Origin: Glycomyces arizonensis DSM 44726
GTDB taxonomy: Bacteria > Actinomycetota > Actinomycetes > Mycobacteriales > Micromonosporaceae
Assembly (NCBI RefSeq): GCF_000482705.1
Contig: NZ_AXWO01000017.1
Location: 1 to 64,000, forward strand
Direction: 5' to 3'
Length of the DNA stretch: 64,000 nucleotides
Below, one piece after another: positions 8,292 to 23,082 of the stretch. A program made the position numbers and the translations under genes. Each line of letters starts with the position of its first letter. Position 1 is the first letter of the stretch. The notes beneath the pieces are model-generated. The model worked only from the letters and a program-made list of their open reading frames with translations, did not search any database and had not been told where the DNA came from.

Positions 8292-8960
8292 ATGGGACAG
8301 GCGCAATGGACCGAGGTCGACACGTTCCTCGACTCGCTCCTCATCGGAGAGGACGACGCCCTCGCCGAGGCCGTCGCCTCCAGCGAACGGGCGGGCCTGC
8401 CGCCGATCCAGGTCTCGGCCGCCCAGGGCAAGCTGCTGTACCTGCTGGCGAAGGTCCAGGGCGCCCGGCGCGTGCTCGAGATCGGGACGCTCGGCGGCTA
8501 CAGCGCCATCTGGATGGCCAGGGCCCTGCCCGCGGGCGGGCACCTCATCAGCATGGAGGCCAGCCCGAGGCACGCCGAGGTCGCCAGCGGGAACGTCGCC
8601 CGCGCCGGACTGGTCGGCACCGTCGAGATCCGCGTGGGCCGCGCCGCCGAGAGCCTGCCGAAGCTCGCCGAGGAGGGGCCCGAGCCGTTCGACATGGTCT
8701 TCATCGACGCCGACAAGGCCGGATACCCCGCCTATCTGGAGTGGGCGCTGAAGCTGACGCGCCCCGGCGGCCTCATCGTCGCCGACAACGTCGTGCGCGG
8801 CGGGGCCGTGGCCGACGCGCTGAGCAGGGACACCAACGTGCGGGGCGTGCGCGCCTACCTGGAGGCGGTGGCCGCGAACCCGCGCCTGGAGGGCACCGTG
8901 GTGCAGACCGTCGGCGTCAAGGGCTACGACGGCCTCTCGATCGCCCGCGTACTCGAGTAA
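8292..8960 (+). CDS. SAM-dependent O-methyltransferase (class I, catechol-O-methyltransferase-like)
   Basis: 222 residues, the size of Methyltransf_3-type bacterial O-methyltransferases. Visible motifs: VLEIGTLGGYSAIWMA (SAM motif I, about residues 61-76), the acidic MEAS loop, and DMVFIDADKAGYPAYL with metal/SAM-binding acids, followed by GGLIVADNVVRGG. Such enzymes methylate hydroxyls of small aromatic compounds in a divalent-metal-dependent way; the substrate is unknown. The start has AAGGAG about 9 nt upstream. It stands alone in front of the glycosyltransferase region and may or may not belong to it. Confidence 0.9.
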   Translation: MGQAQWTEVDTFLDSLLIGEDDALAEAVASSERAGLPPIQVSAAQGKLLYLLAKVQGARRVLEIGTLGGYSAIWMARALPAGGHLISMEASPRHAEVASGNVARAGLVGTVEIRVGRAAESLPKLAEEGPEPFDMVFIDADKAGYPAYLEWALKLTRPGGLIVADNVVRGGAVADALSRDTNVRGVRAYLEAVAANPRLEGTVVQTVGVKGYDGLSIARVLE

Positions 8961-9018: not shown

Positions 9019-10089
9019 ATGCGAGGTTCGAGCAGGCCCGAGGCGAGGATCGGCGGCGATCGCCGCGCGAATTCCCCTGTAGACGACACCGGGGCAGGCG
9101 GCACTGGGGCGCGAGACGGCGACCGGCGGCTCCGGGTCCTGTCCTGGCACGTCCACGGCTCCTGGCAGCACTCCTTCGTCCAGGGCCGCCACGAGTACCT
9201 CCTGCCGACGCTGCCCGAACGCGGCCCGTGGGGCCTGGGCCGCGCCGATCGGCCCTGGGGACCGAACGCGGTCGAAGTCCCCGCCGCCGAACTGCGCGAG
9301 GCCGAGGTCGACGTCGTGGTGCTCCAGCGGCCCGAGGAGCTCGGCCTCGTCGAGCGCTGGCTGGGCCGCAGGCCCGGCATCGACGTGCCCGCCGTGTACG
9401 TCCAGCACAACACGCCGAACGAGGGCGCGGCCACCACCGAGCACGTCCTGTCCGAGCGCGGCGACATCACCGTCGTCCACGTCACCGACTTCAACCGGCT
9501 CATGTGGGACTGCGGCGAGGCCCCCACCGAGGTCATCGGGCACGGCATCGTCGACCCCGGCCCACTCTACGAGGGCGACCTCGCCAGGGCCGTCGCCGTC
9601 ATCAACGAACCGGTGCGCCGCGGCAGGGTCGCCGGGGGCGACCTGCTGCCGCACTTCTGCGCCGCCGCCCCCGTCGACGTGTTCGGCATCAAGGCCTCCC
9701 AGATGCGGATCGACGCCGGGCCCGGCAGGCACGAACTGGTCGGCGGCGCCGACCTCCGGCTCGACGAGCTGCACCGGCAGATGGCCCGGCGCCGCGTCTA
9801 CGTCCACCCCGCCCGCTGGACCTCGCTCGGGCTGTCGCTGCTGGAGGCGATGCACCTGGCCATGCCGGTGGCCGTCGTCGCCGCCACCGAGGCCGCCTCG
9901 TTCCCGCAGGAGGTCGGCGTCGTCTCGTGCGACCCGGGGGCCCTGGTGGCCGGGGTGCGCGAGCTGATCGAGGACCGCGAGCAGGCCGTCGCGGCGGGGA
10001 AGGCCGCGCGCGAGTACGCGCTGGCCAACTTCGGCCTCGAGGACTTCCTGCGGCGCTGGGACGCGCTGCTGGCGAGGGTCGCCGCGTGA
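9019..10089 (+). CDS. glycosyltransferase, GT4/GT-B type
   Basis: About 356 residues. The N-terminal half is variable, with a YVQHNTPNEG segment. The C-terminal half has a GT-B donor-binding layout: RRRVYVHPARWTSLGLSLLEAM, where the acidic residue before AM is the usual sugar-phosphate contact, then a C-terminal helix (YALANFGLEDFLRRWDALL). Probably transfers a sugar from a nucleotide donor to a glycan or small molecule. It is followed after 17 nt by a second GT4 gene with its own GGAGG site. The start is uncertain: a TTG at 8986 and this ATG are both possible and neither has a good ribosome site. Confidence 0.8.
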   Translation: MRGSSRPEARIGGDRRANSPVDDTGAGGTGARDGDRRLRVLSWHVHGSWQHSFVQGRHEYLLPTLPERGPWGLGRADRPWGPNAVEVPAAELREAEVDVVVLQRPEELGLVERWLGRRPGIDVPAVYVQHNTPNEGAATTEHVLSERGDITVVHVTDFNRLMWDCGEAPTEVIGHGIVDPGPLYEGDLARAVAVINEPVRRGRVAGGDLLPHFCAAAPVDVFGIKASQMRIDAGPGRHELVGGADLRLDELHRQMARRRVYVHPARWTSLGLSLLEAMHLAMPVAVVAATEAASFPQEVGVVSCDPGALVAGVRELIEDREQAVAAGKAAREYALANFGLEDFLRRWDALLARVAA

Positions 10090-10106
10090 GCAACCGAGGA
10101 GGCAGT

Positions 10107-11288
10107 ATGAAGATCGCAATGGTGTCCGAGCATGCGAGCCCCATCGCGGACATGGGCGGCGAGGACGCGGGCGGCCAGAACGTGCACGTCGCGCAGCTCG
10201 CCGCCGCGCTCACCCGCCAGGGCCACCGTGTCTCGGTCTACACGAGGCGCGATCGGCCCGACCTCGCCGAGCGCGTCGAGGCGCCCGAGGGCTACGAGGT
10301 CGTTCACGTCGAGGCGGGTCCGGCCGGTCGCGTCCCCAAGGACCACCTGCTGCCGCACATGGGCGCCTTCGCCGAGCGGCTGCGCGCGCTGTGGGACGCC
10401 GAGCCGCCCGACATCGCGCACGCGCACTTCTGGATGTCGGGGCTGGCGTCGCTGTGGGCGGCCGACGAGGCCGACCTGCCGGTGGTGCAGACCTACCACG
10501 CGCTCGGCACGGTCAAGCGCCGCCACCAGGGCGAGGCCGACACGAGCCCGCCGAGCCGCCTCCAGCTCGAACGCGACATCGGCGCGCGGTGCGCGGGCGT
10601 CATCGCCACCTGCCGCGACGAGGTCGACGAGCTCGCCGCCATGGACGTCGACGGTGACAAGGTCGAGGTCATCCCGTGCGGGGTGGACCTCGAGCACTTC
10701 AACCCCGACGGGCCCGCCGGGGATCGCACCGGGCGCCGCCGCGTCGTCACCGCCGGCAGGCTCGTGCCGCGCAAGGGCGTCGACACGGCCATCAAGGCGC
10801 TGCGGGACCTGCGGGGCACCGAGCTGGTCGTCGCCGGGGGACCGGCCGAGGGCCCGGTGGAGGGTGACCCGGAGGCGCGGCGGCTGCGCCGCGTCGCCGA
10901 GGAGGCCGGCGTCGCCGACCGGGTGCTCATGCCCGGCCGCGTCCCGCACGAGGCCATGCCCGCGCAGTTCCGCTCTGCCGACGCCGTGGTCTGCACGCCC
11001 TGGTACGAGCCGTTCGGGATCGTCCCGCTCGAGGCGATGGCCTGCGGCGTGCCCGTGGTGGCCAGCGCCGTCGGCGGCATGATCGACTCCGTCGAGGACG
11101 GCGTCACCGGCACGCTCGTCCCCGACCCGTCTCCGGAGGCCGTCGCCGAGGCGCTCCGGCCCTATCTGGAGGACGCCGAGCTGGGGCGCCGGACCGGCCA
11201 GGCCGGGCGGGAGCGGGCGTGCGCGCTCTACTCGTGGGACGCGATCGCGGCCGAGACGATCAAGGCGTACGAACTGGCCGCCTCGTAA
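10107..11288 (+). CDS. glycosyltransferase family 4 protein
   Basis: 393 residues with the classical GT4 architecture: N-terminal acceptor domain beginning MKIAMVSEHASP and containing GGQNVHVAQLAAAL, an AHAHFW motif, then the donor domain with VIPCGVD, VTAGRLVPRKGVD and the E-x7-E segment EPFGIVPLEAMACG. The sequence resembles the glycosyl transferases group 1 that use GDP- or UDP-sugars. GGAGG at 10098-10102 sets the start. An in-frame GTG at 10086 overlaps the previous stop. Its 3' end meets that of the oppositely oriented GT2 gene with no gap. Confidence 0.92.
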   Translation: MKIAMVSEHASPIADMGGEDAGGQNVHVAQLAAALTRQGHRVSVYTRRDRPDLAERVEAPEGYEVVHVEAGPAGRVPKDHLLPHMGAFAERLRALWDAEPPDIAHAHFWMSGLASLWAADEADLPVVQTYHALGTVKRRHQGEADTSPPSRLQLERDIGARCAGVIATCRDEVDELAAMDVDGDKVEVIPCGVDLEHFNPDGPAGDRTGRRRVVTAGRLVPRKGVDTAIKALRDLRGTELVVAGGPAEGPVEGDPEARRLRRVAEEAGVADRVLMPGRVPHEAMPAQFRSADAVVCTPWYEPFGIVPLEAMACGVPVVASAVGGMIDSVEDGVTGTLVPDPSPEAVAEALRPYLEDAELGRRTGQAGRERACALYSWDAIAAETIKAYELAAS

Positions 11289-12182
11289 GCCGATGTAGCG
11301 GCGGGCCTTCGAGGCCCGCTGCGGTCCTTCCAGGAGCGCCAGCGCCGCCTCGATGCCCGGCGGGACGACGCGGCGGCGGCGCAGCACCCACGGCGTGCCG
11401 CGGACGGCCTCGACGACGGCCGCCGCGGTCGTGGCGTCGGCCGGGGCCGAGCGCAGGACCTCCATGCTGCGGCGCAGGGCGCTGCGGGCGGGGCGGCGCA
11501 GCCACTGCGTCCACAGCGTGTTGCGGATGCCGAGGCGGCGGCGCTCGGCCGAATCGCGCGATCCGGACGGCCGGTGGCGGACGACGACGTCCTCGACCCA
11601 GCACATCCACCAACCGGCGGCGGCCAGGTCGAGCGCGAGCAGTTCCTCCTCGCCGCTGAACCACATGCGCCGGTCGAACCCGCCGACCTGCCTGAAGGCG
11701 GCGGTGCGGAACATGGTGACCCCCGCCAGCACGCCCAGGAGCGGCTTGCCCGGCAGCCACGCCGGGCCTGGGACCGGCGACTCGCGCAGCTCGGGCGTGA
11801 GCGGGTCCTCCTCCAGTCCCGGCTCGACGAGGCACCGGCCGGTCACGCTCGCGACCGACTGGTGGGCGTCGAGGACGTCGGCCGCGCGTTCGAGCGAACC
11901 GGGCTCCCAGCACACGTCGTCGTCGCAGAAGGCGACGTAGCGGGTGCGCGCGAGGCCGACCGCGACGTTGCGGCCGATCGCGCCGAGGTTGCGTTCGGAG
12001 CGGACGAGGCGGACGGCGGGGAAGCGGCGCTCGACCGCCGCGGCGGTGCCGTCGGACGAGCCGTTGTCGACGACGATGACCGGCCCGGCGTCGGGCAGCG
12101 CGGTCATGTGCGCGAGGGTGCGTTCCAGCTCGGCTCGGCGGTTGCGGGTGATGACGACGATGGTGACGCGTCCGCGGCTCAT
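11289..12182 (-). CDS. glycosyltransferase family 2 protein, stop codon not found at expected end
   Basis: About 298 residues of GT2 sequence: VTIVVITRNRRAELERTL at the start, VVDNGSSDGT, RNLGAIGRNVAV, the divalent-cation-binding FCDDD and a GWWMCWVEDVVVRH end. It is about the same size and shape as its upstream neighbour (12179-13072), which ends at the equivalent point. Here no in-frame stop occurs at the convergence with the GT4 gene, and the frame stays open antisense down to 9798. I therefore end the feature at the neighbour's stop. Its start overlaps the upstream gene's stop by 4 bp. Confidence 0.75.
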
Positions 12183-13072
12183 GGGCGGGGCTCCACCTGC
12201 GCCGTCTCCAAGCGGACGATCGCGGCCTCGATCTCGGCGGGCAGGCGGCGCCGTCTGGTCAGGACCGCGGGCAGGCGCGCCAGCAGCTCGGCCAGGGCGG
12301 CGGCGGCGCTCCGGTCCCGCAGCGCCGCCGCAGCCAGGGGCCGCGTGTCGCGCAGGCACACGCCGAGCGGCCTGCGGTGCCACGAGGTCAGGGCGCTGTT
12401 GCGCAGCTCGCGGGCGCGGCGCCACGCCGAGGGCGGGCGCTCGGCGGACGGGTAGTGGCGGGCGATGACGTCGTCGGCGTAGCACAGGTGCCAGCCGCGG
12501 GCGGCCAGGTCGAAGGCGAGCAGCTGCTCCTCCCCGGCGAAGCGCAGGATCGGGCTGAAGCCGCCGGCCTGGGTGTACGCCGAGCGGCGCACGACGGAGG
12601 CGCAGGCGAGGAAGCCGAGGACGGCGGGCCCGGGCATCCCCTCGGGCGTCCCAAGCGGACTGGCGGCCATCGCGTCGTTGAGCGGGTCGGGCCTGGCCTC
12701 GTCGCCGACGAGGGTGCGGGCGGCGACCAGGCCGAGGCGCGGGTGCGCGTCGAGGAGGTCGGCGGCCCGCGCCAGAGCGCCGCGCTCCCACCACGAGTCG
12801 TCGTCGGCGAAGGCGACGTACGGCGTCGTGGCGGACCGGACGCCCACGTTCCTGGCGACCGAGCCCTCGTTGGCGCGCAGCCGCCGGTAGTGCACGTGCG
12901 GGCATCCGGCGGCCAGGGCCCGCATCTGCGGGCCGGTGTCGTCGTCCGAGGCGTTGTCGACCACGATCACCTGCGGTGTCGGATCCAGCGACAGCAGCTC
13001 CACAATGGTGCGTTTGAGTTCGGTCGCCCGGTTCCTGGTGGCGATGACGACACTGGTGCGCTCGTCGAACAT
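12179..13072 (-). CDS. glycosyltransferase family 2 protein
   Basis: 297 residues, GT-A fold: SVVIATRNRATELKRTI, VIVVDNASDDDTG, ANEGSVARNVGV and the metal-binding FADDDSWW. It is clearly a paralogue of the downstream gene, with the same tail of Trp/His-rich sequence (GWHLCYADDVIARHYPS). The two overlap by 4 bp and form a small operon divergent from the carbamoyltransferase operon. Probably adds sugars to the glycan made by that locus. The start could also be the GTG at 13105; this ATG (MFDERTSVV) fits the family better. Confidence 0.88.
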   Translation of the reverse strand: MFDERTSVVIATRNRATELKRTIVELLSLDPTPQVIVVDNASDDDTGPQMRALAAGCPHVHYRRLRANEGSVARNVGVRSATTPYVAFADDDSWWERGALARAADLLDAHPRLGLVAARTLVGDEARPDPLNDAMAASPLGTPEGMPGPAVLGFLACASVVRRSAYTQAGGFSPILRFAGEEQLLAFDLAARGWHLCYADDVIARHYPSAERPPSAWRRARELRNSALTSWHRRPLGVCLRDTRPLAAAALRDRSAAAALAELLARLPAVLTRRRRLPAEIEAAIVRLETAQVEPRP

Positions 13073-13228
13073 GCGGCGCGGATACCCCGAAGGTCCGGTG
13101 CGCACACCTGCGCGAGCACTGTAACGGCTCTCAACTGGCCGATGTTTACAAGTGAAGACACAGGGTAGCTATGGCGTACTGAAGTGACGCGCGATTTCGC
13201 GGGTCCGAGGCGAACTCAGGGGGCTGCA

Positions 13229-14869
13229 GTGAAGGTTCTGGGCGTCAACGCGATCTTCCACGATTCTTCGGCGGCACTGGTCGTCGACGGGGAGATCGTC
13301 GCCGCGGCCGAAGAGGAGCGGTTCAGCCGCCGCAAGCACGGCAAGCGGCCGGTGCCGTTCGCCGCCTGGGAGCTGCCCGACCAGGCCATGGCCTGGTGCC
13401 TGGCCGAAGGCGGCCTGGACGCGAGCGAACTCGACGCGGTGGCCTACGCCTACGACCCCGACGCGGTCGATCACGAGGGCGGCGGCCTCGACCCGCAGTG
13501 GGAGCCGCTGCGCACCACCTACGCCAGGCGGGCGCCGCTGTTCCTCCACACCGCTCTGCCGAGCCTCGACAACTCCAAAGTGGTGTTCGTGCGGCACCAC
13601 GTGGCGCACGCCGCCTCCGCGGCGCTGGCCGCCCCCTTCGCCGACGGCGGCGCCGCCGACTGCGCCGTCATCGTCGCCGACGGCCGCGGCGAATGCGCCT
13701 CCTACCTCGCCGGGCAGTACCTCGACGGCAAGCTCGTCGAGCTGGCCGCCCAAGACCTGCCGCACTCGCTCGGCCTGCTCTACGAGGACGCCACCGCGCA
13801 CCTGGGCTTCGCGCGCTCCAGCGACGAGTACAAGGTCATGGCCCTCGCCTCCTACGGCACGCCGCGATTCCTCCCCGAGCTGACCGAGGCCGTCCACGCC
13901 ACCGGCGACGGCGGCTTCCGCACCGAGCCGATCGACTGGGACCGCCTCGCCCCGCCCCGCGATCCCGACGCCGAGCCGACCCGCGACCACGCCGACCTCG
14001 CCGCGAGCGTCCAGCGCCGCCTCGAGGACGTCCTGCTCGAACTCGCCCGCTGGACGCATGAGCGCACCGGCGCGACCGACCTCGCCCTCGCCGGCGGCGT
14101 CGCCCTCAACTGCGTGGCCAACACCCGCCTGCACAACGAGGGCCCGTTCGAGCGCATCTGGGTCCAGCCCGCCGCGGGCGACGCCGGGACCGCGCTCGGC
14201 GCCGCCCTCCACGTCGCCGCCGAACTGGGCGACGAGGTCGCCCCCATGCGCACCGCCGCGCTCGGGCGCGGCTGGAGCGAGGCGGCGATCGAAGCCGAAC
14301 TCGTGCGCTCGGGGCTCCCCTACGAGCGCCCCGACGACCTCGCCGACGAGGTCGCCGCCGCCCTGGCGGCCGACGAGATCGTCGGCTGGTTCCAGGGCCG
14401 CGCCGAATTCGGGCCCCGCGCCCTCGGCCAGCGGTCCCTGCTCGCCCACCCCGGCCGCGAGGACAACCTCGAGCGGCTCAACGCCGTCAAGGGCCGCGAG
14501 TCGTTCCGCCCGGTGGCGCCGATGGTGCTCGCCGAGCGGGCCCCGGAGGTGTTCGGGCGCGGCCCGCAGCCCTCGCCGTACATGCTGTTCGTCCACGACG
14601 TCGACCCGAGCTGGCGGGACCGGCTGCCCGCGGTCACCCATGTCGACGGGACCGCCCGCATCCAGACCGTCGACCGCGCCGACCACCCGCTCCTGGCCGC
14701 GATGCTCGCGGACTTCGAGCGCCGCACCGGCCTGCCCGCGGTGGTCAACACCAGCTTCAACACCGCCGGGCGGCCGATGGTCGACCACCCCAGGGACGCC
14801 CTCGAGTGCTTCGGGTCGGCGCCGATCGACCTGCTCGCCCTCGGCCCGTTCACGGTGAGGCGCCGATGA
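13229..14869 (+). CDS. O-carbamoyltransferase (NodU/CmcH/TobZ family)
   Basis: 546 residues. The N-terminal Kae1-like domain begins VKVLGVNAIFHDSSAAL and has the metal-binding HHVAHAASAA motif (about residue 122). The C-terminal domain shows EFGPRALGQRSLLAHP, KGRESFRPVAPMVL and NTSFNTAGRPMVDHP. Such enzymes form carbamoyl-adenylate from carbamoyl phosphate and ATP and transfer the carbamoyl group to a sugar hydroxyl. GTG start with AGGGGG 5 nt upstream. First gene of an operon whose other members make and transfer heptose, so a heptose or the glycan carrying it is the likely acceptor. Confidence 0.92.
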   Translation: MKVLGVNAIFHDSSAALVVDGEIVAAAEEERFSRRKHGKRPVPFAAWELPDQAMAWCLAEGGLDASELDAVAYAYDPDAVDHEGGGLDPQWEPLRTTYARRAPLFLHTALPSLDNSKVVFVRHHVAHAASAALAAPFADGGAADCAVIVADGRGECASYLAGQYLDGKLVELAAQDLPHSLGLLYEDATAHLGFARSSDEYKVMALASYGTPRFLPELTEAVHATGDGGFRTEPIDWDRLAPPRDPDAEPTRDHADLAASVQRRLEDVLLELARWTHERTGATDLALAGGVALNCVANTRLHNEGPFERIWVQPAAGDAGTALGAALHVAAELGDEVAPMRTAALGRGWSEAAIEAELVRSGLPYERPDDLADEVAAALAADEIVGWFQGRAEFGPRALGQRSLLAHPGREDNLERLNAVKGRESFRPVAPMVLAERAPEVFGRGPQPSPYMLFVHDVDPSWRDRLPAVTHVDGTARIQTVDRADHPLLAAMLADFERRTGLPAVVNTSFNTAGRPMVDHPRDALECFGSAPIDLLALGPFTVRRR

Positions 14870-16344
14870 CCACCATCACCATCGTCGTCCCCACGATCGG
14901 CAGGCCGAGCCTGCGGACGCTCCTGACCGCCCTGGCCGCGGCCAAGGGCCCCGAGCCCAGGCGCCTCGTCCTCGTCGACGACCGGCCCCGGCCCGGCAGG
15001 CTCGAACTGCCGGACCTGCCCTTCCCGTGCGACGTGCTGCGCTCCTACGGCCGCGGCCCCGCCGCGGCCCGCAACCTCGGCTGGCGGGCCGCCGACACCG
15101 AATGGGTCGCCTTCCTCGACGACGACGTCATCCCGTCGGCCACCTGGTTCGCCGACCTCGACGCCGACCTCGCGCCGCTCGGCGACGACGACGCCGCCTC
15201 CCAGGGACGCATCGAGGTGCCGCTGCCCGAAGGCCGCAGGCCGACCGACTCCGAGCGCGGCACCGCCTCGCTCGCCGACGCGCGGTGGATCACCGCCGAC
15301 ATGGCCTACCGGCGCGAGGCCCTCCAGGCCGTCTCCGGGTTCGACGAGCGCTTCACCCGCGCCTTCCGCGAGGACTCCGACCTGGCGCTGCGGATCGTGG
15401 ACGCCGGCTGGCGCATCGGCTACGGCGAGCGCGTCAGCACCCACCCGGCTCGCCCGAGAGGCTTCCTCGCGAGCGTTCGCGACCAAGCCGGCAACGCCGA
15501 CAACGCGCTCATGCGGGCCAAGCACGGCCTCACCTGGCGCCAGCGCTCCGGCGAGCGGCCCGCCAGGTTCCTCAGCCACCTCGCCACCACCGGCCTCGGC
15601 GCCGCCGCGCTGATCGGAGCGCTGCGGGGCCGCCGCTGGGCCGGTGCCGCCGCCGCGGCCTGGGGCGTGCAGACCGCCCGCTTCGCCGCGAGCCGCATCG
15701 CACCCGGCCCGAAGCGCCCCGCCGAGATCGCCGACATGGCGCTCTCCAGCGCGCTCATCCCGCCCGCCGCGATCTTCTGGAGCGCCGTCGGCACCCTGCG
15801 GCACCGGCCGAGCCCGCGCCCCGACGCGGTCCTGTTCGACCGCGACGACACGCTCATCGCCGACGGCCCCTACCTGTCCGACGCGGAGAAGGTCCGGCCC
15901 ATGCCGGGGGCCGAGATCGCGCTGCGGCGCCTGCGGGCCGCCCAGGTCCCCGTCGGCGTCGTCACCAACCAGTCCGGCGTCGCCAAGGGACTGATCGCCC
16001 CCGAGGAGCTGGAGGCGGTCAACCGCCGCGTCGACGCGCTCCTGGGGCCCTTCGACGTGTGGAAGGTCTGCCCGCACGGCGCCGAGGACGGCTGCCGGTG
16101 CCGCAAACCAGCGCCCGGCATGGTCCGCTCGGCCGCCGCGAAACTCGGCGCCCGGCCCGAGCGGTGCGTCATGATCGGCGACACCGGCGCCGACGTCGCC
16201 GCCGCGCTCGACGCGGGCGCGCGGGCGATCCTCGTGCCCACCAGCGCCACGCGCCCCAGCGAGATCGCCCTCGCCAGGCGCCGCGCCGCCGTCGCCGCCG
16301 ACCTGTGCGAGGCGGTCAACCTCGCGTTGGGGGACATCGCATGA
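14866..16344 (+). CDS. fusion protein: GT2 glycosyltransferase plus GmhB-type heptose bisphosphate phosphatase
   Basis: 492 residues. Residues 1 to about 230 are a GT-A glycosyltransferase (VVPTIGRPSLR, PAAARNLGW, FLDDDVIPS) followed by a hydrophobic stretch. From about residue 320 a HAD-IIIA phosphatase begins with LFDRDDTL, continues with VVTNQSG and the zinc loop CPHGAEDGCRCRKP, and ends with MIGDTGADVAAA. This matches D,D-heptose 1,7-bisphosphate phosphatase, which supplies heptose 1-phosphate for HldE. The gene overlaps its neighbours by 4 bp on both sides (ATGA). The fusion couples heptose precursor synthesis to a transferase in one chain. Confidence 0.9.
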   Translation: MTTITIVVPTIGRPSLRTLLTALAAAKGPEPRRLVLVDDRPRPGRLELPDLPFPCDVLRSYGRGPAAARNLGWRAADTEWVAFLDDDVIPSATWFADLDADLAPLGDDDAASQGRIEVPLPEGRRPTDSERGTASLADARWITADMAYRREALQAVSGFDERFTRAFREDSDLALRIVDAGWRIGYGERVSTHPARPRGFLASVRDQAGNADNALMRAKHGLTWRQRSGERPARFLSHLATTGLGAAALIGALRGRRWAGAAAAAWGVQTARFAASRIAPGPKRPAEIADMALSSALIPPAAIFWSAVGTLRHRPSPRPDAVLFDRDDTLIADGPYLSDAEKVRPMPGAEIALRRLRAAQVPVGVVTNQSGVAKGLIAPEELEAVNRRVDALLGPFDVWKVCPHGAEDGCRCRKPAPGMVRSAAAKLGARPERCVMIGDTGADVAAALDAGARAILVPTSATRPSEIALARRRAAVAADLCEAVNLALGDIA

Positions 16345-17363
16345 GCAGACGCGTCCTCATCGCCAGGCAGGACAACATCGGCGACGTCCTGCTGGCGGGC
16401 CCGTGCGTGCGGGCCGTCGCCGCCTCCGGCGCGTCGGTCACCGTCCTCGCCGGACCGCACGGGGCCGCCGCCGCGGCGCTCCTGCCCGGCGCCTGCGACA
16501 CGCTCACCTGGCGCGCGCCGTGGATCGACCCCGCGCCGCCGCCGGTCGAGGCCGACGACATCGAGGCGATCCGCGACGACATCGCCCGCCGCGACTTCGA
16601 CGCCGCGCTCATCCTCACCTCCTTTCACCAGTCGCCGCTGCCGACGGCGATGCTGCTGCGCCTCGCGGGCATCCAGTGGATCGGCGCGATCAGCGAGGAC
16701 TACCCCGGCTCCCTGCTCGACCTGCGCCACCGCGTCCCCGAGGCCCTCCCCGAGGCCGAACGCGCGCTCAGCCTCGCCACCGCCGCCGGATACCGCCTGC
16801 CCGAGGGCGACGACGGCCGCCTGGCCCTGGCCGGGCCGCTGCCCGACACCGGCCACCTCGGCCTGCCCGACCGCTACATCGTCGTCCACCCCGGGGCCTC
16901 GGCCCCGGCCAGACGCATGTCCCTGCCGCGCATGGCCGCCATCGCCGAAGCGCTCCAGGACGCCGGGCACCCGGTCGTCGTCACCGGCTCGAAGCCCGAA
17001 CGGCCCCTCACCGCCTGCGTCGCCCAAGGCCGCGCCCTCGACCTGGGCGGACAGACCACACTGGACCAGCTCGCGGCCGTCATCGCCCGCGCCGACGCCG
17101 TCGTCGCCCCCAACACCGGGGCCGCGCACCTGGCCGCCGCCGTCGGGACCCCGGTCGTCAGCCTCTTCGCGCCCGTCGTCCCGGCCGTGAAATGGGGACC
17201 CTACGGGGTGCCGCACGTGCTCCTGGGCGACCAGGACGCCCCGTGCCGCGACACGCGCGCCCGAACCTGCCCCGTCACGCGGCACCCGTGCCTCGAGACG
17301 GTGTCGCCCGAGGCCGTGCTCGCGGCCGCCGAATCGCTCATGGCCGCCACGGTCGAAGCATGA
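16341..17363 (+). CDS. glycosyltransferase family 9 (heptosyltransferase-like)
   Basis: 340 residues with the GT9 (WaaC/WaaF) pattern: RVLIARQDNIGDVLLAGP at the N-terminus (the conserved GD), YIVVHPGASAPARRMSL at the start of the donor domain, and ADAVVAPNTGAAHLAAAVGTPVVSLFAP, the nucleotide-sugar-binding signature. The tail contains a Cys-rich CPVTRHPCL segment often seen in GT9 members. In this operon ADP-heptose is the obvious donor. ATG overlaps the preceding TGA. Its own stop overlaps the first of three mini-ORFs. Confidence 0.9.
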   Translation: MSRRVLIARQDNIGDVLLAGPCVRAVAASGASVTVLAGPHGAAAAALLPGACDTLTWRAPWIDPAPPPVEADDIEAIRDDIARRDFDAALILTSFHQSPLPTAMLLRLAGIQWIGAISEDYPGSLLDLRHRVPEALPEAERALSLATAAGYRLPEGDDGRLALAGPLPDTGHLGLPDRYIVVHPGASAPARRMSLPRMAAIAEALQDAGHPVVVTGSKPERPLTACVAQGRALDLGGQTTLDQLAAVIARADAVVAPNTGAAHLAAAVGTPVVSLFAPVVPAVKWGPYGVPHVLLGDQDAPCRDTRARTCPVTRHPCLETVSPEAVLAAAESLMAATVEA

Positions 17364-17423
17364 GCACCGTGGAGGCGTGCGCAGCTGAAGCATGAGGACC
17401 GCCGAAACATGAGGACCGCCTGA
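17360..17423 (+). other. chain of three mini-ORFs linked by ATGA overlaps
   Basis: The GT9 stop lies in an ATGA whose ATG opens an 11-codon ORF (MSTVEACAAEA, 17360-17395). Its stop overlaps a second ORF (MRTAET, 17392-17412), and that overlaps a third (MRTA, 17409-17423). Two 17-nt near-identical direct repeats (17387-17403 and 17404-17420) underlie the chain. gmhA begins 42 nt later with its own GAGGAAGGG site. This may be a coupling device or simply repeat-generated sequence. Confidence 0.5.
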
Positions 17424-17465
17424 TCAAGAGAGCACTGACGATGCGAGACGAGAGGAAGGGACATC

Positions 17466-18050
17466 ATGACCGACACAGCCGAGCAGCACTGGCGTCGACT
17501 GGGAGCCGCCATGGGCCGACTCCACGCCGAAGCGCCTCGCGTCCAACGCTGGGGCGAACACCTCGCGCGGACCCTTTCCGGCGGCGGCCGCCTCCTCGCC
17601 TGCGGTAACGGCGGCTCCGCCGCCGAAGCGCAGCACCTGACCGGCGAACTGGTCGGCCGCTTCCGGGCCGACCGGCCGCCGTTCTCGGCGATCGCGCTGC
17701 ACGCCGACACCTCGGCGGCCACCGCCATCCTCAACGACTACGGCGAACACGAGTACTTCGCCCGGGCCGTCCGCGCGCATGGACGCCCCGGCGACATCCT
17801 CATCGCCCTGTCCACCAGCGGCACCAGCCACAATGTCATCAACGCCGCCAAGGCCGCCCTCCAAGAGGGGCTGACGGTGTGGGGCATGACCGGGCCGGGG
17901 CCCAACCAGCTGGCCACGCTCGCCGACGACGCGATCGCCGTGGACGCCGAGACCACCGCCACCGTCCAGGAGGCGCACCTGTCGATCGTCCACGCCCTGT
18001 GCGGCGCCTTCGACGACGCCCTGGGGGCCACCTCGGGGGGCGCGGCATGA
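17466..18050 (+). CDS. gmhA: D-sedoheptulose-7-phosphate isomerase (GmhA-like SIS protein)
   Basis: 194 residues, normal for GmhA. Shows CGNGGSAAEAQHLTGELVGRF (residues about 45-65), the AIALHADTS and NDYGEHEYFARAV segments and the LSTSGTSHNVINA phosphosugar loop. These include the acidic and His residues that distinguish GmhA/DiaA-type SIS proteins. It would convert sedoheptulose 7-phosphate to D-glycero-manno-heptose 7-phosphate, the first step of the heptose pathway. Preceded by GAGGAAGGG and overlapping hldE by 4 bp. DiaA-type function is possible by sequence but unlikely next to hldE. Confidence 0.93.
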   Translation: MTDTAEQHWRRLGAAMGRLHAEAPRVQRWGEHLARTLSGGGRLLACGNGGSAAEAQHLTGELVGRFRADRPPFSAIALHADTSAATAILNDYGEHEYFARAVRAHGRPGDILIALSTSGTSHNVINAAKAALQEGLTVWGMTGPGPNQLATLADDAIAVDAETTATVQEAHLSIVHALCGAFDDALGATSGGAA

Positions 18051-19423
18051 AGCGGCTCGTGATCGTCGGCGACACGTTCCTCGACATCGACATCCACGGG
18101 CGCTCCGACCGGCTCTGCCCCGAAGCGCCCGTGCCCGTCGTGGACGCCGCCAGAGAGGTCCGGCGGCCCGGCGCCGCCGGGCTGGCCGCCATGCTCGCCG
18201 CCCGCGACTCGCCGCGCACCAGCCTCATCACCGCCCTCGGCGACGACCAGGCCGGACGGCAGCTGCGCGAACTGCTCGAACCGCACGTCGACCTCGTCGC
18301 CATGCCGCTGGCGGGCACCACCGTCCGCAAGATCCGCATCCGCGTCGGCAACCAGCTCATCACCCGCATCGACCACGGCGACGGCCGATCGCCCACCGGC
18401 GAGCTCGACGAGGCCGCCGCCATGACCCTCCTCCGCGCCGACGCCGTCCTCGTCGCCGACTACGGCCGCGGCATCGCCGAGCACTCGGGGCTCCGCCGCC
18501 TCCTGGCCGAACTGGCGCCCGCGATCCCCATCGTGTGGGACCCGCACCCGTCCGGGCCGCTGCCCGTCCGCGGCCTGCGGCTCGTGACGCCCAACCAGGC
18601 CGAGGCCGAGCGCCTCGCGCCCGGCGCCGACAACCACCGGCAGCTCGCCGAGCACCTGCGGGGCGCCTTCGCCAGCCACGCCGTCGCCGTCACCCGGGGC
18701 GCCCAGGGCGCGACCCTGGCGACCGAGACGCAGACCACGCGCGTCCCGCCGCCGCCCGACGTCCCCGTCGCCGCCGACCGGTGGGTCGACACGTGCGGCG
18801 CCGGCGACCAGTTCAGCGCGGCCGCCGCGAACGCCCTGCTGACCGGCGGCGACGTCCACCGGGCCGTGTCCCGCGGCGTCGAGGCCGCCTCGCGGTTCGT
18901 CGCCGCCGGGGGCGTCGGCGTCCTCCACGGCGACCAGTCCGCCGACGAGCCCGAGATGGACACCGGCATCGTCGACGCCTTCGAACTGGCCGCCCGCGTC
19001 CGCGGCGAGGGCGGCACCCTCGTCGCCACCGGCGGCTGCTTCGACCTGCTCCACCCCGGCCACGTCAGCCTGCTCCGGCGCGCCCGCTCCATGGGCGACG
19101 CCCTGGTCGTGTGCCTGAACTCCGACGACTCCATCAGGATGCTCAAGGGCGCGGGCAGGCCCATCCTCACCGCCGCCGACCGGGCCCGGCTGCTCGCCGA
19201 ACTCGCCGTCGTCGACGCCGTCGTCGTCTTCGACGAGCCGACGCCCACCCAGGTCCTCGAACGGCTGCGGCCCCACATCTGGGTCAAGGGCGCCGACTAC
19301 GCGGGCCGCCCGATCCCCGAATCGCACACCGTGTACCGCCACGGCGGTGAAGTCGTCGTCGTCCCCACCGTCGACGGCTACTCCACGACCAAGCTCATCG
19401 CGACCATGAGCACGCAGACCTGA
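18047..19423 (+). CDS. hldE: bifunctional heptose 7-phosphate kinase / heptose 1-phosphate adenylyltransferase
   Basis: 458 residues in the HldE order. Residues 1 to about 300 are a PfkB-type kinase (VIVGDTFLDIDIHG, ending with the anion-hole DTCGAGDQF). Residues from about 320 are a nucleotidyltransferase with ATGGCFDLLHPGHVSLL (HxGH motif), LNSDDSI, IWVKGADYAGRP and YSTTKLI. Kinase plus adenylyltransferase would turn heptose 7-phosphate into the bisphosphate and, after the GmhB-like phosphatase, into ADP-heptose. Unlike typical HldE, the usual GGAANVA helix reads PGAAGLAAM, so the sugar-side pocket may differ. Overlaps gmhA by 4 bp. Confidence 0.92.
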   Translation: MKRLVIVGDTFLDIDIHGRSDRLCPEAPVPVVDAAREVRRPGAAGLAAMLAARDSPRTSLITALGDDQAGRQLRELLEPHVDLVAMPLAGTTVRKIRIRVGNQLITRIDHGDGRSPTGELDEAAAMTLLRADAVLVADYGRGIAEHSGLRRLLAELAPAIPIVWDPHPSGPLPVRGLRLVTPNQAEAERLAPGADNHRQLAEHLRGAFASHAVAVTRGAQGATLATETQTTRVPPPPDVPVAADRWVDTCGAGDQFSAAAANALLTGGDVHRAVSRGVEAASRFVAAGGVGVLHGDQSADEPEMDTGIVDAFELAARVRGEGGTLVATGGCFDLLHPGHVSLLRRARSMGDALVVCLNSDDSIRMLKGAGRPILTAADRARLLAELAVVDAVVVFDEPTPTQVLERLRPHIWVKGADYAGRPIPESHTVYRHGGEVVVVPTVDGYSTTKLIATMSTQT

Positions 19424-19426
19424 ACG

Positions 19427-19447
19427 ATGAGAACGGAGAACGAATGA
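19427..19447 (+). other. mini-ORF bridging hldE and the SDR gene
   Basis: A six-codon ORF (MRTENE) starts 3 nt after the hldE stop. Its own TGA overlaps the ATG of the SDR gene (ATGA). The GGAGAACG inside it also serves as the ribosome site of that gene. It begins with the same MRT codon series as the mini-ORFs at 17392 and 17409. Confidence 0.45.
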
Positions 19448-20127
19448 TGCTGGGCAACGTCCTCGTGACCGGAGGCGCCTCGGGACTCGGCGCCGCGGCC
19501 GCCGCCGAGATCCTCGCCGCCGGAGGCACGCCGCTGATCCTCGACCGCAAGGCCCCCGAGGAGAAGGTCCCCTACCGCAAGGCCGACCTCGCCGACACCG
19601 CGGCCACCGCCGAGGCCGTCGACGAGCTCGCGACCGAGGCCGGGCGCCTCGACGCGGTCTTCACCGCCGCGGGCATCGACGCCTGCGGCGCGCTGGCCGA
19701 CGTGCCCGCCGAGGACTGGGAGCAGGTGATCAAGGTCAACCTGCTCGGCACCGCCGCCACCGTCCGCGCCGCCCTGCCGCACCTGGCCGAGACCCGCGGC
19801 AAGGTCGTCACCTGCGCCTCCACGCTCGGCGTCAAGGCCGTCGGCGACGCCACCGCCTACTGCGCCTCCAAGTTCGGCGTCGTCGGCTTCACTCGCGCCC
19901 TGGCCGCCGAGACCGCCGGGCGCATCGGCGTCACCCTCCTCATCCCCGGCGGGATGCACACCGCGTTCTTCGACGACCGGCCCGAGCAGTACAAGCCCGC
20001 GCCCGACGCGAAGCTCAACGACCCCAGGGACGTCGCCCGCGCCGTCGTCTTCGCGCTCGGGCAGCCGCCCGGCTGCGAGGTGCGCGAGATGGTCGTCTGC
20101 TGCTCCGAGGAGACTTCCTGGCCGTGA
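19444..20127 (+). CDS. classical short-chain dehydrogenase/reductase of the heptose operon
   Basis: 227 residues, classical SDR: LVTGGASGLGAAAA cofactor loop, AGID variant of NNAG, catalytic Ser region CASTLGVKAVG and YCASK (Tyr-x3-Lys). It is not the extended SDR HldD, which would be about 310 residues and carries out the C6 epimerisation of ADP-heptose. It may oxidise or reduce a hydroxyl or keto group on the heptose or the glycan. Cotranscribed between hldE and a second GT9 gene, with the downstream gene overlapping by 4 bp (GTGA). Substrate is inferred only from context. Confidence 0.88.
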   Translation: MMLGNVLVTGGASGLGAAAAAEILAAGGTPLILDRKAPEEKVPYRKADLADTAATAEAVDELATEAGRLDAVFTAAGIDACGALADVPAEDWEQVIKVNLLGTAATVRAALPHLAETRGKVVTCASTLGVKAVGDATAYCASKFGVVGFTRALAAETAGRIGVTLLIPGGMHTAFFDDRPEQYKPAPDAKLNDPRDVARAVVFALGQPPGCEVREMVVCCSEETSWP

Positions 20128-21062
20128 GCGGCACCGTCCTGGTCCTGCGGGCGCTCGGCGTCGGCGATCTTCTGACCGCCGTCCCGGCGCTGCGCGCCCT
20201 GCGCGAGGAGTTCGACGGCAACCGGATCGTCCTCGCCGCGCCCGAGGCGCTGCGCGAGCTCGCCGACCTCGTCGAGGCCGTCGACCGCCTCCACCCGACG
20301 GCCGGGCTCGGCGAGCTCGAATGGCACGCCGAGCCGCCCGCCGTGGCCGTCAACCTGCACGGCAAGGGGCCCGAGAGCCTGCGCGACCTCCTCGACGCCG
20401 ACCCGTCGGCGCTCATCTCGCACCGCAACCCGGCCGTGCCGAACGTGCCCGGGCCCGACTGGCGCCCCGAACTGCACGAGGTCGACCGCTGGTGCCGCCT
20501 GCTGGAGGAGTACGGCATCGCCGCCGACCCGACCGATCTCGCGCTCGGGCCGCCGCCGCGGCCCGCGGCGCACCGGGGCGCCGTCGTCGTCCACGCCGGG
20601 GCCGCCGCGGCGGCCCGGCGCTGGCCCCCCGACCGCTTCGCCTGGGTCGCCCGGCATCTGCAAGACGACGGCCACGACGTCGTCCTCACCGGCGGCCCCG
20701 CCGAGGCGGACCTCGCGCGGTCCGTGGCCGAGGCCGCGGGCATCGCGCCGGAGCGCGTCCTGGCCGGACGGACCCGGCTCGACGAGCTCGCCGCCGTCGT
20801 GGCCGCCGCCGGCCTGGTCGTCAGCGGCGACACCGGCATCGCCCACCTCGCCACCGCGTTCGGCACCCCGTCGGTGGTGCTGTTCGGGCCCTCGCCGCCG
20901 ACGCTGTGGGGCCCGCCGCCCGGCGTGCGGCGCCACGTGGCGATGTGGGCCGGGCGCACCGGCGACCCGCTCGGCGAGAGCCCCGATCCCGGCCTGCTCG
21001 AACTGGAGCCCGAGCCCGTGCTCGACCAGTGCCGCGAACTCATCGGCCGCCACGGCCGCTGA
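20124..21062 (+). CDS. glycosyltransferase family 9 (heptosyltransferase-like), second copy
   Basis: 312 residues: LVLRALGVGDLLTAVPALRAL at the N-terminus, VVVHAGAAAAARRWPPDRFA opening the donor domain, and GLVVSGDTGIAHLATAFGTPSVVLFGP, the GT9 nucleotide-sugar signature. It is only distantly similar to the GT9 at 16341, so the two probably add successive heptoses. GTG start overlapping the SDR stop. Last gene of the operon; no strong hairpin follows in the 50 nt before the histidine kinase. Confidence 0.9.
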   Translation: MSGTVLVLRALGVGDLLTAVPALRALREEFDGNRIVLAAPEALRELADLVEAVDRLHPTAGLGELEWHAEPPAVAVNLHGKGPESLRDLLDADPSALISHRNPAVPNVPGPDWRPELHEVDRWCRLLEEYGIAADPTDLALGPPPRPAAHRGAVVVHAGAAAAARRWPPDRFAWVARHLQDDGHDVVLTGGPAEADLARSVAEAAGIAPERVLAGRTRLDELAAVVAAAGLVVSGDTGIAHLATAFGTPSVVLFGPSPPTLWGPPPGVRRHVAMWAGRTGDPLGESPDPGLLELEPEPVLDQCRELIGRHGR

Positions 21063-21108: not shown

Positions 21109-21115
21109 CATGGTG

Positions 21116-22432
21116 ATGCCACAGACGACCAACCCGATGACGCGACGGCTCGCCCTCCTGGGCTGGTCCGTCCGACGGTTCAGCCTCACGCTCGCCGCCG
21201 CCGTGCTGCTGGTCTTCGCGCTGCTCACCGGCGCCCTCGTCGTCTTCTGGATCGGCATCCCCCTCGCCGTCGCCGCCATCCTCGCCATCCGCGGCTGGGC
21301 CAGGCTCGAGCGCCGCAGCGTCGGCGAGCAGCTCCGCATCGACATCCCCGAGCCCTACAAGCCGGTGCCGAGGACCAGGCTCGACCAGCGGGCGCTCGCG
21401 CTCATCCGCGACTCCGCCACCTGGCGCGACGTCGCCTGGCTCGCCATCGACGCCACCCTCGGGCTCGCCGTCCACCTCGTCTACCTCGGCCTGTTCGGCG
21501 TCGCCGTCTACTACCTCGTGCAGCCCGTGCTCCTGGCGACCGTCCTCGACGCCTCCCACCCCGTGGTCAACGACCTGCGCTTCTACGACTTCGACACCCC
21601 CGCCAAGACGCTCCTGCTCATGCCGCTCGCCCTCGGCTTCGGCGCGGCATGGTGGCGCTGGGGCGAGCTGTTCCTGCGCTGGTACGGCCACCTGGGCGCC
21701 AAGCTCCTCGGCCCCACCGTGAACGCGCTGCTCACCGCCCGCGTCTTCGAACTGCGCGAATCGCGCGACCAGACCGTCGACCACGCCGCCGCCGAGCTGC
21801 GCCGCATCGAACGCGACCTCCACGACGGGGCCCAGGCCCGCATCGTCGCGCTCAGCCTGACCCTCGGCATGGCCGAGGAGCTGCTCCACAACGCGCAGCC
21901 CGACGAGGCCGCCAAGCTCGTCGGCGAGGCCCGCGAGGCCTGCTCCGAGGCGCTCAACGAGGTCCGCCACATCGCGCGCGGCATCCACCCTCCGGTCCTG
22001 GCCGACCGCGGCTTCTCCGGCGCGCTCCAGGCGATGTCGCTCGACCACCCGCTGCCGGTCGCCGTCGTCGACCGGCTCCGCGGGCCGCTGCCCGCCCCCG
22101 TCGAGGCGGCCGCCTACTTCGCCGCCAACGAGGTCCTCACCAACATCGCCAAGCACGCCGAGGCCACGAAGGTCCGCGTACTCGCGGGCCACGTCGACGG
22201 CGAGCTGCTCGTCGAGATCTATGATGACGGCCGGGGCGGCGCCGAGGCCGCCCCCGGCGGCGGCCTCGACGGCGTGCGCCGGCGCCTGGGCGCCTTCGAC
22301 GGCACGCTCGTGGTGGTCAGCCCGGCCGGCGGCCCCACGATCGTGACGATGAAGATCCCCTGCGAGCCGATTCCCCTGGCCGCGGCGACCGGCGGGCACC
22401 GCGCCGCCGGTGATGACCGCACCACCGATTAA
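21116..22432 (+). CDS. sensor histidine kinase, NarL-partner (HisKA_3) type
   Basis: 438 residues. The N-terminal about 200 residues hold four or more membrane helices arranged like the Sensor-type domain of actinobacterial kinases. The cytoplasmic part has the HisKA_3 H-box RIERDLHDGAQARIV (phospho-His about residue 240), the N-box NEVLTNIAKHA and a G-box DDGRGG...GGGLDGVRRRL. It should phosphorylate the response regulator encoded 8 nt downstream. The stimulus is unknown; the next gene is an acyl desaturase, which raises a membrane-state signal as in DesK, but the sensor domain is different from DesK. Confidence 0.9.
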   Translation: MPQTTNPMTRRLALLGWSVRRFSLTLAAAVLLVFALLTGALVVFWIGIPLAVAAILAIRGWARLERRSVGEQLRIDIPEPYKPVPRTRLDQRALALIRDSATWRDVAWLAIDATLGLAVHLVYLGLFGVAVYYLVQPVLLATVLDASHPVVNDLRFYDFDTPAKTLLLMPLALGFGAAWWRWGELFLRWYGHLGAKLLGPTVNALLTARVFELRESRDQTVDHAAAELRRIERDLHDGAQARIVALSLTLGMAEELLHNAQPDEAAKLVGEAREACSEALNEVRHIARGIHPPVLADRGFSGALQAMSLDHPLPVAVVDRLRGPLPAPVEAAAYFAANEVLTNIAKHAEATKVRVLAGHVDGELLVEIYDDGRGGAEAAPGGGLDGVRRRLGAFDGTLVVVSPAGGPTIVTMKIPCEPIPLAAATGGHRAAGDDRTTD

Positions 22433-22440
22433 GGACCGCC

Positions 22441-23082
22441 ATGGACGTCGTCCTCGCCGAAGACCACTCCCTCCTGCGCGACGGACTCACCCGGATGCTC
22501 GAAGCCCACAATTGCACCGTCGTCGAGGCCGTCGACAACGGTCCCGCGCTCACCGCGGCCCTGCTGGGGCACCGGCCCGACGTCGCCGTGGTCGACATCC
22601 GGCTGCCGCCGACCTTCACCGACGAGGGCCTGCGGGCCGCCATCGAGGCCCGCCGCACCATCCCCGCCCTGCCGATCCTGGTGCTCTCCCAGTACGTCGA
22701 GCAGCTGTACGCGCGCGAACTCCTCGGCGACCGCCGCGGCGGCGTCGGCTACCTGCTCAAGGACCGCGTCTCGAACGTGGGGGAGTTCATCGAGGCACTG
22801 CGGCGTGTCGCCGCGGGCGGCACCGCCATGGACCCCGAGGTGGTCGCCCGCCTGCTCGGCAGGCAGCAGAACCGGCTCGACGCGCTCACCGCCCGCGAGC
22901 AGGAGGTCCTGGCCCTCATGGCCGAGGGCCGGACCAACGCCGCGATTGCCTCGCAGCTGTTCGTCAGCGAGAAGGCCGTCGGCAAGCACTCGGCCAACGT
23001 CTTCCGCAAGCTCGGGCTCAACCAGTCAGAGGACGACAACCGGCGCGTCCTGGCCGTCCTCGCCTACCTCGAAGGCAACTGA
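22441..23082 (+). CDS. LuxR/NarL-family response regulator
   Basis: 213 residues. Receiver domain about 1-120 with MDVVLAEDHSLLRDGL, phospho-acceptor in VVDIRLPP and the LKDRV lysine. C-terminal GerE-type HTH about 148-210 (LTAREQEVLALMAEGRTNAAIA...SEKAVGKH). Partner of the kinase just upstream, which ends 8 nt before it. Likely targets are its own operon or the following desaturase; I see no inverted repeat that settles this. Confidence 0.93.
   Translation: MDVVLAEDHSLLRDGLTRMLEAHNCTVVEAVDNGPALTAALLGHRPDVAVVDIRLPPTFTDEGLRAAIEARRTIPALPILVLSQYVEQLYARELLGDRRGGVGYLLKDRVSNVGEFIEALRRVAAGGTAMDPEVVARLLGRQQNRLDALTAREQEVLALMAEGRTNAAIASQLFVSEKAVGKHSANVFRKLGLNQSEDDNRRVLAVLAYLEGN

Follow-up and report, generated by a model that had tools for sequence, protein, structure and literature searches.

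A cwg-type gene cassette of Glycomyces arizonensis with a predicted ADP-heptose pathway and a distinct O-carbamoyltransferase

The window analysed here, 64,000 nucleotides of the genome of Glycomyces arizonensis DSM 44726 (contig NZ_AXWO01000017.1, C13 in our numbering; 72% GC, from a genome of 5.05 Mb in 49 contigs), contains at positions 9019-21062 a cassette of about eleven genes that appears to be a variant of the 'putative cell wall glycan' operon, cwg, of Streptomyces coelicolor. We consider it fairly probable that this cwg-type cassette makes a carbamoylated D-glycero-D-manno-heptose oligosaccharide for the cell envelope. The proposal builds on the observed gene content and motifs, on linkage conserved across loci and on a relation to cwg traced through a Streptomyces relative.

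Gene content and predicted heptose pathway

The genes of the cassette are as follows.

9019-10089, plus strand: GT4a, glycosyltransferase (Pfam Glycos_transf_1, 33.5 bits), conserved along with the cassette
10107-11288, plus strand: GT4b, MshA-like glycosyltransferase (237 bits against an MshA cut-off of 462), conserved along with the cassette
11289-12182, minus strand: GT2y, second divergent GT2 glycosyltransferase (translation and comparison with relative L042)
12179-13072, minus strand: GT2x, first divergent GT2 glycosyltransferase (Pfam Glycos_transf_2, 84.8 bits)
13229-14869, plus strand: CarbT, O-carbamoyltransferase of the NodU/TobZ family (Carbam_trans_N, 181.5 bits; Carbam_trans_C, 219.8 bits)
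14866-16344, plus strand: GT2 glycosyltransferase fused to a GmhB-like HAD-IIIA phosphatase (Pfam/NCBIfam; DxD and CxH...CxC motifs)
16341-17363, plus strand: GT9a, heptosyltransferase-like protein (Pfam/NCBIfam; motif alignment)
17466-18050, plus strand: GmhA, predicted sedoheptulose-7-phosphate isomerase (159 bits against an equivalog cut-off of 209)
18047-19423, plus strand: HldE, predicted heptose-7-phosphate kinase/heptose-1-phosphate adenylyltransferase (265 bits against a cut-off of 521)
19444-20127, plus strand: classical short-chain dehydrogenase/reductase (SDR) with the YxxxK motif, not HldD (Pfam/NCBIfam)
20124-21062, plus strand: GT9b, heptosyltransferase-like protein (GD and DTG motifs)

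The genes from CarbT to GT9b (13229-21062) form a single tight operon, with 4-base overlaps at the CarbT/fusion, fusion/GT9a, GmhA/HldE and SDR/GT9b junctions and gaps of 102 and 20 bases at the other two. A sequence-only reading of this stretch had already grouped GmhA, HldE, a GmhB-like domain, two GT9 proteins, the O-carbamoyltransferase and the SDR in one operon, and gene calls, Pfam and NCBIfam agree. It had also described two divergent GT2 genes and two GT4 genes lying nearby; the divergent orientation holds, with the second gene lacking the stop codon of its L042 relative, whereas the GT4 genes are more than neighbours, since both pairs belong to the full unit. The Pfam scan covered ten of the eleven cassette proteins; the eleventh, GT2y, was identified from its similarity to L042. 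The GT2y reading frame continues without a stop to 9798 (9798-12182, minus strand), giving 794 codons antisense to GT4b. The start of GT4a is uncertain, with conservation beginning at about residue 38. The cassette has a GC content of 75.2%, against 71.7% in the remaining window.

The best NCBIfam matches of the pathway proteins were heptose enzymes, all below the equivalog cut-offs: the fusion matched the heptose-1,7-bisphosphate 7-phosphatase model best (104 bits, cut-off 178) and both GT9 proteins scored far below theirs, which marks HldE, GmhA, the fusion and GT9a and GT9b as diverged members of their families. Both the kinase and the adenylyltransferase domains were found in HldE (Pfam/NCBIfam). 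Motif conservation, scored across homologs taken from the fetched loci, was high in residues that we take to be catalytic or metal-binding: in GmhA, GNGGSAA and a later H and E (77/77 homologs), Q (78/78) and H (77/78); in HldE, GAGD (82/82) and HxGH (81/81); in the phosphatase, the first and second D of DxD (44/49 and 45/48) and the residues of CxH...CxC (44/45 each); in GT9b, GD (63/63) and DTG (71/71); and in GT9a, GD (74/74). Among solved structures, the matches were phosphoheptose isomerases, a heptose 7-phosphate kinase, heptose bisphosphate phosphatases and heptosyltransferases. The four activities of the pathway (isomerase, kinase, 7-phosphatase and adenylyltransferase) all appear to be encoded with their key motifs, in keeping with the complete ADP-heptose gene set claimed earlier. 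Genome-wide, no HldD 6-epimerase exceeded its cut-off (best 95.5 bits against 274.6), so the D-glycero form of the heptose is probably the one used.

The same below-cut-off scores of GmhA, HldE and the phosphatase would also suit an alternative in which the three make a related activated sugar, with a different epimer or nucleotide, which the SDR then modifies. An SDR of at least 50% identity was linked in 44 of the 58 non-Streptomyces loci among our named loci, which are the best 80 of at least 588 CarbT relatives, chosen by CarbT similarity. The nucleotidyltransferase tail motif of HldE is GYSTT in the window (13/83 relatives) and GRSTT in 38 of the 83, and the arginine of GRSTT is part of a motif reported for the use of several nucleotides (PMC11573728). 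Set against this, the motifs and best matches point to manno-heptose enzymes, two GT9 proteins stand alongside them, the full motif [FL]xxGRSTT occurs in 5 of 83 HldE sequences and not in that of the window, and none of the 22 Streptomyces loci has the SDR, which is therefore not needed for the core chemistry. We regard a different sugar as quite unlikely and retain the manno-heptose assignment. The STTR5 motif, considered as a sign of CDP- or UDP-heptose, was discarded on its absence from the window.

Relation to the cwg operon of Streptomyces coelicolor

The cwg operon of S. coelicolor comprises twelve genes, sco6179-6190, with a sigma-E promoter 147 bp from the start codon (PMC6767563); SCO6186 is annotated as a phosphoheptose isomerase and SCO6187 as a bifunctional synthase/transferase (PMC5839063). 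Both sources credit the 'putative cell wall glycan' operon to Hong et al. 2002. It is induced by vancomycin, partly via sigma-E, and before the 2019 regulon study was one of two sigma-E targets described in vivo in S. coelicolor (PMC6767563); its regulation is also treated in PMC13011467 and PMC3902916.

We found the published cwg promoter in the Streptomyces violaceorubidus locus (L113) at 8710-8738, with 27 of 29 bases identical, and the following gene begins at 8885, 147 beyond the promoter (146 bases between). The twelve genes that follow encode, in order, a UDP-glucuronate-decarboxylase-like protein, CarbT, GT2, HAD phosphatase, GT9a, GT4a, GT4b, GmhA, HldE, GT9b and two GT2 proteins, with GmhA eighth and HldE ninth, matching the cwg annotations; by gene order, SCO6180 would be the carbamoyltransferase. 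As the near-identical promoter and the fitting twelve genes occur together in this relative, the window block is best read as a cwg variant: the cwg-type set of CarbT, GT2, HAD, GT9, two GT4, GmhA, HldE, a further GT9 and two GT2 is present in full within 9019-21062. The earlier suggestion that the system had not been described is therefore not supported.

The first gene of the Streptomyces form (cwgA-like, UDP-glucuronate-decarboxylase-like) is absent from the window cassette; its nearest homolog in the window species is unlinked (G000:C8:9311-10252, 57% identical to that of L154). In the fetched stretches a UDP-xylose-synthase-like gene was present in 22/22 Streptomyces loci, preceding CarbT in all of them, and in 24 of the remaining 59, a group that includes the window. 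The L154 homolog matched UDP-glucuronate decarboxylase 1 (2b69) with 324 bits, the next kind of enzyme reaching 133, and the Streptomyces form accordingly probably makes UDP-xylose. As a co-inherited partner of the cassette within the genus, the UDP-xylose-synthase-like gene was rejected, being found in 22/22 genomes with or without the cassette. A conserved sigma-E promoter was likewise rejected: a relaxed motif preceded the cassette in 2/22 Streptomyces and 3/79 other loci, against 23/380 and 68/1335 occurrences before other genes.

Distribution, boundaries and relics

A search of 246 genomes of the phylum with the HldE nucleotidyltransferase model gave matches at E≤0.001 in 79, of which 29 exceeded the curated cut-off, and a domain of at least 175 bits, hereafter strong HldE, in 32, some of them single-domain proteins; ADP-heptose genes are thus not rare in the phylum. 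Cassette-type CarbT (at least 978 bits; next best 623) was found in 25 of the 246, with at most five candidates scored in most genomes. The two occurred together in 22 genomes (Fisher p 1e-20, uncorrected for shared ancestry). Within the genus, the 5 of 22 genomes that have cassette-type CarbT are exactly those with strong HldE; weak HldE-model matches (up to 59 bits) were present in four more and other carbamoyltransferases (up to 396 bits) in seven.

The genome-neighbourhood comparison that the sequence-only reading had called for bore out its grouping. Counting matches of at least 60 bits to eight core genes inside the fetched flanks, all eight were found in 44 of the 80 named loci and at least six in 64. 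Among the 16 loci with fewer than six, eight are stretches shorter than 13 kb and six carry CarbT alone in the flank (L084, L091, L098, L104, L126 and L106, five Geodermatophilaceae and one Microtetraspora); L098, a locus cut off on its upstream side, is in both sets. Conservation of the gene set over this many loci excludes a chance grouping. GT2x-type matches were present in 41/80. The loci are labelled Actinomycetota in 78 cases, the other two, L137 and L142, being metagenome bins assigned to different phyla.

In a quick tree of 99 CarbT sequences, most clustered with their own family, though there were exceptions and many forks were weak, and those of the window's genus fell nearest to Pseudonocardiaceae, Nocardiaceae and Mycobacteriaceae. 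The mostly family-wise order points to an ancient cassette, inherited largely vertically and lost in places.

Two mycobacterial loci differ in content: that of Mycobacterium persicum (L149) has all eight core genes, and that of M. innocens (L143) has CarbT, GT4a, GT4b, one GT2 and a UDP-xylose-synthase-like gene, with no cassette gene past CarbT in the flank. Across the 118 compared stretches, a polysaccharide pyruvyl transferase-like family was found in 16 (for example L111:7783-8676; one member scanned) and a nucleotide-sugar dehydrogenase family in 14.

Three genes outside the cassette flank it.

8292-8960, plus strand: O-methyltransferase, left flank, neighbour of the empty site
21110-22432, plus strand: sensor histidine kinase, right flank, downstream neighbour of the methyltransferase in cassette-less genomes
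22441-23082, plus strand: NarL-type response regulator, right flank, with a strong match in 22/22 genomes of the genus

The best match of the response regulator was at least 87% identical in 21 of these 22 genomes and 59% in G011, and an acetate kinase gene was found in 21. In the corresponding site, fetched from eight relatives, the gap between methyltransferase and kinase was free of the cassette in seven; the two matches lie 0.2-0.9 kb apart in five of the relatives and 3.2-3.4 kb apart in G001 and G020, with no cassette gene matched between them. The eighth, G003, keeps a GT4b-like (58%) and a GT9b-like (69%) gene at the site (L178:4405-7111) and a lone GT2-HAD gene on a separate contig (L046:9026-10522), with no strong HldE and no cassette-type CarbT, and reads as the decay of a formerly complete cassette. 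The distance from acetate kinase to regulator was 3.1-9.0 kb in 15 of the 18 genomes with both on one contig and 14.3-16.3 kb in G000, G019 and G016, where the cassette is present. In G001 the cassette lies on another contig, away from the methyltransferase and kinase. Because the flanking genes meet in cassette-less relatives, we delimit the unit as 9019-21062 and regard the two-component genes as host context. A role of the two-component system as cassette regulator was rejected, kinase and regulator being at the site in eight relatives without an intact cassette. The fusion gene alone was also rejected as a cassette marker: it over-counts (6/22 genomes of the genus), with G003 holding only the fusion and relics.

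Proposed product and comparison with known systems

We infer every catalytic step, as well as the acceptor, the carbamoylation site and the surface location. GmhA would convert sedoheptulose 7-phosphate to D-glycero-D-manno-heptose 7-phosphate, the kinase domain of HldE would add the 1-phosphate, and the GmhB-like half of the fusion would remove the 7-phosphate. GT9a and GT9b would then transfer the heptose, while the GT2 and GT4 enzymes would add the remaining sugars to a short chain built in the cytoplasm on a probably lipid acceptor. CarbT would O-carbamoylate a sugar, most simply the heptose, as had been proposed from the sequence, and the chain would reach the envelope via unlinked export genes; the envelope location is suggested by analogy with how the S. 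coelicolor operon is regulated. The glycan had been described as polymeric or oligomeric. Among the ten scanned cassette proteins Pfam detected no flippase, polymerase or ABC transporter, and none was a multi-span membrane protein, so that a polymer is unsupported and an oligosaccharide fits better.

The absence of export and polymer genes is also compatible with a septacidin-like, secreted or intracellular small-molecule glycoside, in which the transferases would decorate an aglycone from elsewhere. The solved structures closest to CarbT include TobZ, GdmN and a novobiocin carbamoyltransferase, and known members of the TobZ/NodU family take antibiotics or lipochitooligosaccharides as substrates. 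A natural-product precedent is septacidin of Streptomyces, for whose synthesis ADP-heptose is used (PMC11573728, PMC11461863). No nucleoside or scaffold biosynthesis enzyme was seen among the ten scanned cassette proteins. Yet the core genes are spread over many families of actinobacteria, with CarbT sequences that sort mostly by family; the gene families found in at least 14 of the 118 stretches, so far as they could be identified, belong to sugar pathways (one judged by eye); and the S. coelicolor operon is under envelope-stress control (PMC6767563). A small-molecule glycoside therefore seems unlikely. We give still less credence to protein heptosylation, in which the GT9 proteins, like the autotransporter-adhesin heptosyltransferase, would build surface glycoproteins: Escherichia coli provides a precedent from NDP-heptose (PMC11461863), but seven glycosyltransferase genes, drawn from three families, indicate a chain, and no acceptor-like protein was recognised among the families common to many loci, as assessed from their size and the start of their sequence.

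Several observations weigh against the preferred carbamoylated-heptose oligosaccharide of cwg type. The link to cwg was judged through L113 standing in for the S. coelicolor sequence; there, the promoter spacing uses a start codon predicted by the gene caller in this analysis, one of the promoter mismatches, giving CATCTT in place of CGTCTT, falls in the -10 element, and the published 29-mer, with up to 8 mismatches allowed, was found in that one of the 22 Streptomyces loci. No sigma-E-type motif matched within 400 bp upstream of the six window genes tested, and the strict motif preceded the cassette in 0/22 Streptomyces and 0/79 other loci. The acidic residue of the DTG loop is missing from GT9a, with N where 1psw has D (N in 80/80 homologs). 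The cassette contains no export or ligase protein, and the hydropathy peaks of its proteins are marginal. CarbT occurs without strong HldE in 3 of 25 genomes (G034, G214 and G221) and strong HldE without cassette-type CarbT in 10 of 32; two loci, L048 (G225) and L052 (G029), hold HldE, GmhA, SDR, GT9 and GT4 in genomes with no CarbT above the cassette-type threshold, suggesting that carbamoylation may be dispensable. Finally, no chemistry of the cwg product was found in the literature searched, subscription papers, including Hong et al. 2002, being outside its reach.

More tentatively, and as a possibility that we rate below even, the cassette may stand for an old, repeatedly lost, non-polymeric envelope glycoconjugate of the Actinomycetota, containing O-carbamoylated D-glycero-D-manno-heptose supplied via ADP-heptose; the Streptomyces form would also carry a pentose derived from UDP-xylose. 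Such a glycoconjugate would correspond, in Gram-positive bacteria, to the inner core of lipopolysaccharide (LPS), and cassette-bearing actinobacteria would be producers of ADP-heptose, the ALPK1 ligand, which bears on where this innate-immune ligand is made. The gene kinds are ordinary; the interest lies in the open question of the cwg product, which becomes testable. cwg would belong to a widespread cassette that carries a complete ADP-heptose gene set, a distinct carbamoyltransferase clade and, in Streptomyces, a UDP-xylose-synthase-like enzyme, turning the 'putative cell wall glycan' label into a specific chemical prediction. Carbamoylated heptose has a precedent in Pseudomonas LPS; no carbamoylated-heptose glycan in actinomycetes was found in the literature searched. 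The proposal is relevant, too, to the purpose that manno-heptose serves outside LPS, where its roles are little known and the examples named are capsular polysaccharides, protein heptosylation and septacidin (PMC11573728).

Compared with cwg, as represented by L113, the window shares the carbamoyltransferase, GT2, GmhB-like phosphatase, two GT9, two GT4, GmhA, HldE and a GT2 pair. It differs in the fusion of GT2 and phosphatase, in the added SDR, in a rearranged order with the GT4 pair upstream and the GT2 pair divergent, and in having neither a linked UDP-glucuronate-decarboxylase-like gene nor a sigma-E motif match. With septacidin biosynthesis it has in common an activated heptose in an actinomycete, although septacidin is a natural product. 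The Gram-negative LPS pathway to ADP-glycero-beta-D-manno-heptose shares its first three enzymes and the GT9 family with the cassette; in the window species, however, there is no HldD over the cut-off, the phosphatase is fused to GT2, and no lipid A acceptor would be expected. CarbT belongs to the family of the TobZ and NodU O-carbamoyltransferases, from which the cassette clade is nevertheless set apart, with scores of at least 978 bits against at most 623.

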